Shown here piece by piece: positions 10,841 through 19,815 of a DNA stretch of 64,000 nt (position 1 is the stretch's first letter; the number at the start of each line of letters is the position of its first letter). Both the position numbers and the translations under genes were made by a program. The notes below the pieces were generated by a model. It did no database searches. It was not told the origin of the DNA and was given only the letters and a program-made list of their open reading frames with translations. This DNA is from Pseudophaeomoniella oleicola. Lineage: Eukaryota > Ascomycota > Eurotiomycetes > Phaeomoniellales > Phaeomoniellaceae. The stretch lies in the NCBI GenBank assembly GCA_003868215.1, contig QWDQ01000016.1, forward strand, positions 248,001-312,000, written 5' to 3'.

Positions 10841-11071
10841 TCATAAGAATCTTCTCTCCCGCAACTTTGAGCGTTGGTATTCTGCCTCTTCTTGCTGTTG
10901 CTGTTTCCACCAGCAATCGTTACACGGCCCAGGAGTCAGGGGGCCCTCGATGATCCGAAAATGAGGGCATTGGCATTTCTTGAGTTGCTTTTTCTCTGGA
11001 TCGAAATGCACTTTGGTCCAGTACTGCGCCATATGGCCACATTGCCAAAAGTGGTAGCGATAAGTGCACAT
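10841..11071 (-). CDS. Small Cys/His protein, cluster member 1
   Basis: Single-exon gene of 76 residues starting MCTYRYHFWQCGH. Putative zinc ligands: C2, C11, H13, C33/C35, C50 and C53. It shows the layout common to all seven proteins in this cluster: Met-Cys, eight or nine residues, C-G-H, then W18-x3-H22, a central Cys followed by an aromatic residue and a hydrophobic pair (FRII), and a closing C-x2-C (CNDC). The C-terminus is a charged, Gln/Glu/Arg-rich helix. There is no signal peptide, so a cytosolic or nuclear location is more likely than secretion. The function is unknown to me; the ligand spacing suggests a compact zinc fold. The nearest relatives in the window are the following six genes. 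Confidence 0.75.
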   Translation of the reverse strand: MCTYRYHFWQCGHMAQYWTKVHFDPEKKQLKKCQCPHFRIIEGPLTPGPCNDCWWKQQQQEEAEYQRSKLRERRFL

Positions 11072-11904
11072 CCTACAGATTCGTCTCTATGGTGACCGAA
11101 GATGGTTTCGATTGTTGAGAATACTGTCAGGCCTCCAATGCAGAACAGGATGGTCATCAGGTCGGAGGATCGATCAACAGGCTGGGGCGCAGGATATATT
11201 GGGGATCTCAAATGCATTTCACAAAATGCATACCCCTTTGCCATATTTCCATGGCGCACACAGACTTTACCGAGGCCAAGCCACATGCAAAATATTATTC
11301 CGATGGCGGCACCTGAAATTACAGAGACCGATCAATGGCCTGCCATAGCCGTTATCTTCCGATGACGGCTGACCTGGCCACTTCAGGAAATAGGTTGAAT
11401 CTGACAGCTTACCAATGATAAAAGCCTCTCAGTGACAGGGCGTCAAATTCAAGTGAGGCTGGAATATGCATCAATGATGGCCTCGTCAGTCATTTTCTAC
11501 CGGGTTTAAGGCGAGGAGGTAAGCATGGCTGTTTGATTCCTCGTGTGAAATGCGTGTGACATGTTATATTGTCATTGATTGGATCTGTAAGTATTTGGCT
11601 CATGATTCAGTTAAGTTTCTGCTGATAGGACGCTGTCACTGTTTGTCCATGTTCCTCAAGACACCAAAGGCGGGTGATGTACACAAAGGATACAGGGTTC
11701 ACTTGCTTTGTCCGATGAGTCTGGAAAGTGGATGTTTTGACAGTGGCATGTCGGGCGCATGCAATGCTTTGTCTGTTCACTTCTGCAGAAGCTCTACACT
11801 CCAGCAGGGAGTTTGTCCATTACCAATAGCCAACAGAATCGTTCGTTCAATCAATCATATTGAACTCATACTAAGAACCAATACCCAACACCCCACTCCT
11901 GCCA
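11072..11904. other. Spacer between cluster members 1 and 2
   Basis: 0.8 kb. Probably the promoter and 5' UTR of member 1 and the 3' UTR of member 2. No additional Met-Cys...Cys-Gly-His frame found. Confidence 0.45.
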
Positions 11905-12201
11905 CTACCTCCCATACACGATCTCGATCTCCGGCGCCGTATACCACCTGATATCCATGTACTCCACTCTCGCCCTCCTCCTCTCCGCCACCTTCCTCAC
12001 CACCGCCTCCATCTCATGCTCCCTCACCCTCTTCTCATAGCACCCCTTACAGCAACTCGGGACCGTAGGCCCTTGGATCCTCAAGTATCGCCGACAGTTC
12101 CAATGGCGTGGTTGGCGGGAGCTGTTGTCGAGGTGGATTTTGTACCAGTATTCGTGGTGGTGGGGGCAGGTTTCGTAGGTGTGCGATACGAGGGTGCACA
12201 T
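11905..12201 (-). CDS. Small Cys/His protein, cluster member 2
   Basis: 98 residues from ATG 12201. The frame stays open upstream to about 12396, but by alignment with the other six members the Met directly before the invariant Cys (MCTLVSHTYETCPHH) is the likely start. Ligands: C2, C12, H14, C36, C51 and C54 (CKGC). Here Gly of the C-G-H motif is replaced by Pro (C-P-H-H-H). The conserved W-x3-H (WYKIH) and the central C-x2-Y-x-x-I (CRRYLRI) are present. A basic helical tail (KRVREHEMEAVVRKVAERRR) follows and ends with an aromatic-acidic segment. Function unknown. It is more basic than member 1 and could bind nucleic acid, but that is a guess. Confidence 0.75.
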   Translation of the reverse strand: MCTLVSHTYETCPHHHEYWYKIHLDNSSRQPRHWNCRRYLRIQGPTVPSCCKGCYEKRVREHEMEAVVRKVAERRRARVEYMDIRWYTAPEIEIVYGR

Positions 12202-13392
12202 AGTGAGGACGGCGGTGGGAGGTTGGAGACTGGTAAGGGGAATGGGTTGCTTGGTAAGATGCCGATTGACAAAAGAATTGGAAGCGGTTGGTAAACGCTC
12301 CTGATGCAGAGATGGCGAGGTTGGCTGTTTGATAACCGGGATAGCCCGGCTTTGATAATGAAGTAGAACGATAGAATGAAACCGAATGCAATACAAGCAT
12401 CAACTCTCCAAGATCGCAAATTCCCCCCTTTCCTTAGAAAATATCCTGTTGTCGGCCAAAAAGATAAAGCAACCCAAACCGAAACTCCTCGTGATACTAA
12501 TAACCGCATACAAAATACCTCCCGCCGACCCCCGAAGCAAATTAATATATCCCCGAACGGTTTACTTCGTACCACCTCGCATCATCTTCTGACCTCTACG
12601 TCTCTGTCTCAAGTCTCAGTCTCTCCGTTTGTGTCAACACAACTCGTCGCGTGTGTAATCCAAAAGCCGGTTTTTCCCTGTTTCCTGTTTCGGGTTACAC
12701 AGGAAAGGGGGTTGGTTTGAGCAGGTGCGGGTCTTGGCGGAAAGTTTGTTTTGTTTTGTTTTGTTTTGTAGAGGTCAAGAATAAGCGGATATTGAATTGA
12801 GAAATAAACGATGGCTGAGGGTCTTACTTTGTTATAGTGATGGAATTTATGATGATGTCTGTTTGTTGGAGGATGGTATAAGGAAAAGTAAGTAGGTAGG
12901 GTATGTAGTTGGAATATGCAAGAGCTAGTATAAGTGTACATAGAAATAAACTTCCTCTCATGGCAAAGACAATTCAGTTTCTAGATCGAAAACTTAATTC
13001 ACACTCTCTTTGGAATACCTCCGATGATATATAAATCCCGCGGTTAGCAACGTCCATGTTCCGGAGTTTGCATACAGTCGGAGATTCATTCTCGGCGTTA
13101 GAGTAGCGTGATAAGATACAACATCGTTCGAATCTCCGAGAAGGTGGGATAGGTGTGGTTCATCAGTATAGACCAGGGAGAGAGTGATGATTGCATGGTA
13201 TATTCGCTGCTTTGTTTTCCGGGCTTCACTGTGAATGAGGTTGCTCGGAGTTACCATATGCGAGCAGTCGTTGTTGATTGGGCTGGAAGGAGGTATAGTA
13301 TGATCATTTGTTGGAGGTGTAGTGTACCATGTCTTGTGAAAAGTCATTCTACGCGATAACAGAACAATGATAATATTGTAACGCTTGATGCA
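12202..13392. other. Spacer between cluster members 2 and 3, with a TTTTG repeat
   Basis: 1.2 kb. Contains a (TTTTG)n pentanucleotide tract at about 12745-12769. No gene recognised. Confidence 0.5.
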
Positions 13393-18190: not shown

Positions 18191-18406
18191 CTAATCACTA
18201 AACGAACTCTTCTCATCCTCATTCGTCCTGTCTCTACACATCTTGCACATCCACTTCAACTTCCCTTCGTCGACGATGACCCAATTCGGGCACCGGAGTC
18301 CTACGGGTTTCCACGGCGCATGCGGGTCCGGGTGGTAGTTGGATTTGGTGTTGAAGTGCCAGCCGCGGTGGCCGCAGGTGTGGAGGTAGGTGTGGTAGGA
18401 GCACAT
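18191..18406 (-). CDS. Small Cys/His protein, cluster member 6
   Basis: 71 residues from ATG 18406 (MCSYHTYLHTCGH). The frame is open upstream to about 18751, but that extension is Pro/Ser/Thr-rich with no conserved feature and is better read as 5' UTR. Ligands: C2, C11, H13, C39, C54 and C57 (CKMC). A Trp follows the C-G-H (W16), and the central element is C39-x2-W-V-I-V followed by DEG, close to the I-I-E-G of member 1 and V-V-D-G of member 7. This is the shortest member and gives the minimal domain. Function unknown. Confidence 0.75.
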   Translation of the reverse strand: MCSYHTYLHTCGHRGWHFNTKSNYHPDPHAPWKPVGLRCPNWVIVDEGKLKWMCKMCRDRTNEDEKSSFSD

Positions 18407-19503
18407 GTTGAGACGCGGAGGGGAGAGTGAAAGAGGGAGAGGAGTGAAGGGGACTGGTGGTAGGAGGGGAACTAGTTGGGTTGAGATCCGGGAGGGAGTT
18501 GGATAGGTGGGAGGAGAGTGCAGTTGAGGTGTGGATGCTTGTGCTTCGGACGTCAGGGTCTGGGGAGAGTCAGATGGAAGCTGTAGCATGTTAGCATTGC
18601 TGGGAATGGGACGAAGCACATAATAAAGTAGACATTTCTCACATTGAGAATATTGGTAACAAAGAACTCCCTCTATGAAACCCTTCAGATCGTGCAGCAG
18701 TAGACCATAAAGACGTAAATTGTCATGAGAGAGAGATAAAAGAAAATGCAACCAAATACATCACCCCAGGAAAAGAGCAATCTCCCAGCATTTTATGTCT
18801 GGCTCCCCAGCGGTTCTTACGATGGATGGTAACACCAAAAAAAACCCGCTTACCTATCAGCTGTCGCGCGGGTTCCGGTTTCCAATGGTGGATTTCATGA
18901 TGTCTCGACCCAGGTGACACTCCTCCTCGCACTCCTTCAATTTCGACCCGAAGGTTGCACAGGAATTCCCCAGTTAGAGGCGGTGTGCTGTTTCTCTGTT
19001 CCCATTGTTTGAAGAAATCTCGAAAATCATGGTGAAAGGGTATGGGGATAAGGCATTGTGGTTTAAATATATATGTATATGTATAGGAAATGGACAGCAG
19101 CGAGGAAGAAGCTGTCCAAAAGATCTTGTAGAGAAAGGAAGAGATGATAGCAAGTGTAGACATACTTCTCAGTCTTTATATCATGTTCTTTTGTGGAGGT
19201 AGCTGTCTTTGGGCTTACTCGGCCTTAGGCATTAGTATTTCGTGGGCATCCAATGGTAAATTGTGAGAGATCAGGATCTCAGACGGTTTCTGCTTGACCT
19301 TGTGCACAATTTTATCTCCATGGAAATCTAGCTGATGACCCAGTGTGTTCTGACTGATATTGTACGAGTGTATGGCGACAACATCAAGCTAGTTGTTGTA
19401 GGACCAGAGATGATCCATAGGAAGTAGATCACACATTGAGCAGGAGAAAATTGTGGAATCATGTCATTTCATGTTCAATATGTGTCTTCAAACGTGATAT
19501 AGA
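18407..19503. other. Spacer between members 6 and 7
   Basis: 1.1 kb. Minus-strand frames near 18723-19163 lack any recognised domain. No extra member found. Confidence 0.45.
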
Positions 19504-19815
19504 CTATATCTGATTGGCAGCTTCTCCTTCAGGAGAGGATCCACCGCCCCCTCCAGTCTCTCTGGAGTCTCCCTGTTCCCCTTTCTCTGGCTTCTCGACT
19601 CCCCTCGCTGCCTGCGCACTCTCTCCCCGCTCAATCAAGAGGTTGAGATCCTGAGCCCCCTTCGCAATGCAGCGAGGGCAGAGACCATCAACCACGCCAA
19701 TACTCTGTGGGCGATAGTTCCGGCACTTCATCCCTCTCTCTGTGCACCCCGGTCCCTTCGTAAGTGCGTTCCCGGCGTGCCCGCAGGAGAACTTCCAGAG
19801 CTGGTGAAGACACAT
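19504..19815 (-). CDS. Small Cys/His protein, cluster member 7 (possible upstream exons)
   Basis: 103 residues from ATG 19815 (MCLHQLWKFSCGH). Ligands: C2, C11, H13, C24 or C31, C46 and C49 (CPRC); the W-x3-H element is lost. The central part is C31-x2-Y followed by IGVVDG, as in members 1 and 6. The tail is Gly/Glu-rich and disordered. Upstream, three short minus-strand exons with good GT-AG borders stay in phase: 20318-20259 (starts MAAVKAAWEAGKG), 20022-19981 and 19932-19872 (EPLSNYPHFEVPKGAYVSRT). With acceptor attgag at 19821 they join this frame and give 159 residues. If that model is right the invariant Met-Cys is internal here. I prefer the short start by family comparison, and note the long form as a real alternative. 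Confidence 0.68.
   Translation of the reverse strand: MCLHQLWKFSCGHAGNALTKGPGCTERGMKCRNYRPQSIGVVDGLCPRCIAKGAQDLNLLIERGESAQAARGVEKPEKGEQGDSRETGGGGGSSPEGEAANQI

Follow-up and report, generated by a model that had tools for sequence, protein, structure and literature searches.

Results

Seven small genes with a Met-Cys start lie within 9 kb

The DNA analysed here, termed the window, is a stretch of 64,000 nucleotides from the ascomycete Pseudophaeomoniella oleicola. It corresponds to bases 248001-312000 of contig C21 (470,857 bases), in a genome of 26.1 Mb and 112 contigs. Positions 10841-19815 of the window (~9 kb) contain seven open reading frames (ORFs) of 71-115 residues, named g1 to g7. Six are on the minus strand, one is on the plus strand, and the gaps between them measure 0.7-2.1 kb. 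All seven encode proteins that begin Met-Cys and share one arrangement of cysteine and histidine residues. They form a real, clustered and diverged family with a metal-type ligand frame, and the layout recurs in a wider set of uncharacterised fungal proteins.

The first copy is g1 (10841-11071, minus strand, 76 residues). Its protein has the arrangement MC-x8-CGH, followed by W18, H22, C35 and C50-x2-C53. When left out of the family profile described below, g1 was recovered with an E-value of 1.9e-14. The nearest copy to g2 (11905-12201, minus strand, 98 residues; MC-x9-CPH; left-out E 4.9e-7) is g1, with 35% identity. The longest protein is encoded by g3 (13393-13740, minus strand, 115 residues; MC-x9-CGH; left-out E 2.1e-7) and carries a tail of 61 residues beyond the CxxC motif. 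The remaining four copies all begin MC-x8-CGH. These are g4 (15830-16102, minus strand, 90 residues; left-out E 7.5e-10), g5 (17225-17464, 79 residues; left-out E 1.4e-8), which is the sole plus strand copy, g6 (18191-18406, minus strand, 71 residues; left-out E 2.4e-5), which begins at an internal ATG of a 132-residue ORF, and g7 (19504-19815, minus strand, 103 residues; left-out E 1.4e-6), in which Cys24 replaces the second histidine of the other copies. A further ORF of 146 residues (18723-19163, minus strand) lies between g6 and g7 and has no Pfam match at E up to 0.01.

The copies share a ligand frame and are diverged elsewhere

Seven positions are invariant in the alignment of all seven proteins. 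With g1 numbering these are M1, C2, C11, H13, C35, C50 and C53. The spacing from Met-Cys to the next cysteine is x8 in five copies and x9 in two (g2 and g3). That from the central cysteine to the CxxC motif is x14 in five copies, x13 in g5 and x17 in g3. Each protein has 5-6 cysteines in total. An earlier sequence-only reading of this DNA proposed two further elements. Its W-x3/4-[V/I]-H motif stands as a Trp-His element in six copies, but the spacings differ from those given: W-x2-[VI]-H in g1-g4, W-x4-VH in g5 and W-x7-YH in g6. The element is absent from g7. Similarly, the proposed hydrophobic pair behind the central cysteine is missing from g7.

Outside the invariant columns, pairwise identity is 7-25%. 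Mean column identity is 28% for the aligned proteins and 37% for their trimmed cores. The non-ligand aligned positions scored above shuffled sequences in all 21 pairs (p 0.0002 to 0.026), in a test where the alignment had been optimised on the true sequences and so favours the true order. Hence, the likeness of the seven extends beyond the ligands. At the DNA level, a comparison with a 24-nt minimum length shows one likeness between copies, a 40-nt stretch (73%) at the starts of g5 and g6. Recent duplication is thus unlikely; the sequence-only reading had taken the copies to be either not recent or fast-changing. Repeat-induced point mutation (RIP) was considered as a cause of the divergence and rejected; the TpA/ApT ratio is 0.64 in the cluster and 0.53-0.73 across the window.

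The layout is confined to the cluster in local controls

We scored the strict layout MC-x8/9-C[GP]H-...-C-...-CxxC from all ATG-TGY starts. The controls were 23 stretches of the same genome totalling 230 kb: 200 kb from upstream of the window and 20 kb from downstream of it on C21, and a further 10 kb from contig C53. The layout occurred at 7 of the window's 70 starts, at none of the 187 in the control stretches, and not once in 100 dinucleotide-shuffled windows. Across the joined 284 kb of C21, it was present at 7 of 248 starts, all of them the same seven genes. The count, sizes and shared layout described by the sequence-only reading are therefore confirmed.

Leave-one-out profiles gave a concordant result. 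Among 4172 six-frame ORFs from the window and controls, each omitted copy ranked straight behind its six training copies. The E-values ranged from 1.9e-14 for g1 to 2.4e-5 for g6, and the lowest E-value of any non-member across all runs was 0.025. This non-member, a recurring weak match at L019 1442-1639, was dropped because it lacks both a Met-Cys start and a closing C-x2-C. Together, the invariant columns, layout controls and left-out profiles support the view that this is a diverged family, expanded at one locus, with a set of metal-type ligands.

A search of the 26.1 Mb genome with the seven-copy consensus recovered the seven genes and nothing more. The sensitivity of this search is limited: a four-copy consensus recovered those four alone, and a consensus of the other three recovered those three alone. 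Since left-out members are missed, further diverged copies elsewhere could escape, and we do not claim seven as the total.

The Met-Cys start and the coding status of the genes

All seven ATG codons have A at position -3, a base found there in 24 of the window's 70 ATG-TGY starts when the seven are counted in. This supports Met-Cys as the true N-terminus. In-frame stop codons lie 9 to 357 bases upstream of the seven ATGs. GC content at third codon positions is 0.52-0.81.

Searches for homologues and descriptions

The seven-copy alignment was used to search 5.8 billion proteins. There were 184 candidates, none with E up to 0.01, and no homologue was found at that threshold. The same search with g1 alone gave no candidate. 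The method requires three shared 5-residue words, which places distant relatives beyond its reach. In the open-licence PubMed Central (PMC) literature, no description of this layout was found among the matches listed.

A wider fungal family has the same layout

A different bait, a hypothetical protein of fungal origin that begins Met-Cys, matched 291 proteins at E up to 0.01. Members of this family start MCFFDQ or MCYYDQ. The counts and alignment that follow refer to the best 120 of the 291 matches. The named entries are nearly all hypothetical, uncharacterised or unnamed fungal proteins. The genera include Xanthoria, Caloplaca, Periconia, Phyllosticta, Aureobasidium, Zasmidium and Xylogone, which we take to be Pezizomycotina. 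One entry is filed under the plant Carpinus, perhaps as a contaminant, and one has no organism and a bacterial protein name taken over from its source. Met-Cys comes first in 101 proteins and stands within an extended start in 18 more. The sole exception, P0099, begins inside the domain. The pattern MC-x8-C...C...CxxC fits 119 of 120 proteins. Position 13 is Asp in 117 of 119, the central cysteine is residue 33, and C48-x2-C51 follows, with x14 between them in the consensus. Conservation of at least 95% is found at Asp13, Cys23 and E26-Y-R-x-G-E-T-C-G-M-K. None of five members scanned scored above a Pfam cutoff.

P. oleicola itself has two diverged members, both on contigs other than C21. One, of 116 residues, is on contig C35 (E 8.4e-19). 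The second is a Met-Cys CGD protein at 2050-2886 of contig C79, ~2 kb from the contig start (E 1.1e-10); its 278-residue ORF exceeds the usual ~110 residues of the family. The implication of the sequence-only reading that the cluster is unique is not supported, because the Met-Cys / C-G / C...CxxC layout occurs in this unnamed fungal family and at two other loci of the same genome. That the Met-Cys layout extends beyond the cluster is the new observation here.

Like the seven, proteins of the wider family are small and have a Met-Cys start, x8 to a cysteine mostly followed by Gly, a central cysteine and a C-x2-C motif. The x14 consensus spacing before this motif equals that in five of the seven cluster proteins. 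Conversely, the wider family has Asp in place of His13, conserved HC and EYRxGETCGMK stretches, a conserved charged tail and much stronger conservation overall. Asp13, Cys23 and EYRxGETCGMK are not features of the seven, where scattered letters alone agree: G-x-x-C is found in g4-g7, Trp16 in g6 (with a Trp at the equivalent position of g3), and His22 in g1 and g4.

Comparison of the two families by hhalign gave P 0.015 for full alignments. With trimmed alignments, P was 0.0022 in local mode, over 12 columns, and 0.027 in global mode. When all columns were shuffled, 0 (local) and 1 (global) of 200 decoys reached the true score. When the ligand columns were kept, the numbers rose to 26 and 51 of 200. 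Decoys that keep the ligands often match the true score; hence, the common element is the ligand frame, and nothing more is demonstrated. The seven-copy profile scored wider-family members at up to 14.0 bits, near the maximum of 12.9 bits for chance ORFs scored with six-copy profiles. The C35 protein scored -1.4 bits. Thus, the seven and the wider family have the same layout, and their likeness is demonstrated for the ligand frame alone.

Genes flanking the cluster

Adjoining the cluster, at 5320-8280 (minus strand), is a NOD-like receptor (NLR)-type gene with a PNP_UDP_1 domain, NACHT (NPHP3_N) and ankyrin repeats in neighbouring frames. Between this gene and the cluster, a fragment at 10154-10336 (minus strand) has a DUF7730 match below the cutoff (17.1 of 27 bits). 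Housekeeping genes, all on the minus strand, are found to the right: a COX4 subunit (24489-25136), a Cpn60 chaperonin (27675-29213) and an NAA35-like protein (44690-46507). A second NLR-type gene, with SesA, NB-ARC and tetratricopeptide repeats in neighbouring frames, is located at 39654-42206 (minus strand). The NLR-type genes, intron-like sequence and the genome's two members of the wider fungal family would suit a filamentous ascomycete.

Discussion

Proposed origin as old tandem duplicates of a small zinc protein

The seven genes share a ligand framework, have detectable similarity outside the ligands, and are clustered. We consider it somewhat probable, judging from the sequences, that they arose long ago by tandem duplication of a single gene for a small intracellular fungal protein, whose fold depends on bound zinc. 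The zinc, the intracellular site and the binding role are parts of this explanation that we infer. Met followed by cysteine is among the substrates of methionine aminopeptidase, and the mature protein should therefore begin with cysteine. An N-degron paper on Aspergillus oryzae likewise places cysteine among the residues exposed by this enzyme (PMC12542663). The predicted ligands would be C2 (N-terminal once Met is removed), C11, H13, H22 (C24 in g7), C35, C50 and C53. A first tetrahedral site may comprise C11, H13, C50 and C53. The putative second site would use C2, H22 or C24, and C35, with the N-terminal amine or a water molecule perhaps filling the remaining position. The change from His to Cys in g7, where the Cys lies near the His position of five other copies, fits a metal site, as this swap is usual in zinc sites. 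If the fold rests on the metal core, the C-terminal tail and the remaining surface would be free to vary. Each copy would then probably bind a different protein or nucleic-acid partner.

Several observations weigh against this explanation. None of the seven matches a Pfam family at its cutoff. Among the matches below the cutoff, g6 matched zf-Sec23_Sec24 at 15.4 of 25 bits and g4 matched zf-C3HC4 at 13.7 of 21; both are zinc families. There is no convincing relative in the PDB, where g1 has no match and the seven-copy profile has two weak ones (E 0.18 and 0.52). In this respect the sequence-only reading, which recognised no named family, is supported. The putative second site has three side-chain ligands, and the second His position varies between copies. 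In addition, g1 and g7 could have a spliced 5' leader or upstream exon. Both have AG|G immediately 5' of the ATG and, by eye from the sequence, donor- and branch-like sequences are present upstream of g7. Finally, codon usage is not gene-like. Scores per codon ran from -0.10 to 0.00 in the seven genes, and from 0.04 to 0.23 in the training frames; the score was trained on a small set of 13 other window frames, which were scored on themselves, and the test genes are short. Codon bias being unsupportive, the coding case rests on the retained layout.

Alternative explanations

Such codon usage, and the gaps between the ORFs, would suit an old array of which decaying or non-coding remnants are left, with the frames persisting by chance. 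We regard this as very unlikely since each of the seven open frames keeps the seven positions although pairs of copies differ at 75-93% of the other aligned residues, and the cluster shows no RIP signature. A quite improbable alternative is that the proteins are diverged RING-like ubiquitin-ligase modules. Ligands in the RING finger follow a cross-brace order, which the arrangement (C2)-(C11,H13)-(H22,C35)-(C50,C53) would match. The RING finger also shares C-x-H and C-x2-C elements with the seven, and g4 has the weak zf-C3HC4 match. However, the match lies below the curated cutoff, the other six proteins have no RING match at E up to 1, and the first C-x2-C pair of RING fingers is absent. The genes are also clustered and diverged, and encode small proteins that contain cysteine, as might be expected of effectors. 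Such effectors would act outside the cell, on a host or competing fungi, after unconventional export, and diverge in an arms race. This is improbable. As the sequence-only reading noted, no signal peptide is visible; by crude hydropathy, the 12-residue maximum within the first 35 residues is only -0.45 to 0.58. Each protein has just 5-6 cysteines, one of which is at position 2. Moreover, fungi of the wider family presumably differ in life-style, lichen formers included. A similar layout in such fungi suits a role inside the cell, if the two families are related.

The Met-Cys start itself could have another cause. Cys2 might be kept for the control of protein lifetime after Met removal, by an oxygen- or nitric oxide-linked Cys/Arg N-degron or by acetylation, with one zinc site elsewhere in the protein. 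In plants, according to one study, Met-Cys starts are a known entry to the Cys/Arg N-degron (PMC11773813), and the invariance of this start in the seven, together with its prevalence in the wider family, would fit. Yet residue 3 varies among g1-g7 (T, T, I, I, T, S and L, respectively), and the spacing between C2 and C11 is fixed at x8 or x9, which a free degron would not need. The word 'oxidation' does not occur in the main text of the Aspergillus oryzae N-degron paper (PMC12542663), which carries little weight either way. Overall, we judge a degron role for Cys2 unlikely.

A doubtful further proposal is that the seven and the wider Met-Cys fungal set represent a minimal two-zinc cross-braced domain, in which the N-terminal cysteine provides both a thiolate and an amino group. 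The metal site would in that case be complete only once Met has been removed. If true, this would explain the invariant Met-Cys start and yield eight ligands from seven side chains.

Comparison with known proteins

Churchill (CHURC1) is an animal zinc protein that starts (M)CGD and so resembles the seven in its Met-Cys start. The Churchill family was absent from the Pfam matches of the seven at E up to 1, its model not having been run separately. In one report, the Churchill N-terminus is not acetylated in human cells, and its peptide is not detectably oxidised by ADO in vitro (PMC11199558). Metallothioneins are comparable to the seven in small size and metal-type residues. The seven differ in having just 5-6 Cys in 71-115 residues, short of the very high cysteine content of metallothioneins, and an ordered His/Cys frame.

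Implications

Small zinc proteins and tandem families are already familiar in kind. The cluster is of interest because it would allow the idea of an N-terminal cysteine ligand to be tested. If our explanation is true, there is in fungi a sizeable class of small zinc proteins that can be recognised by their second residue and have no family in the Pfam copy used. Gene finders would easily overlook such proteins, as would searches that depend on sequence similarity. Judging by this cluster, the class may expand and diverge at one locus without losing its metal frame. The seven natural variants may help to tell structural residues from others, and to show if a cysteine at the N-terminus can serve as an indispensable metal ligand.

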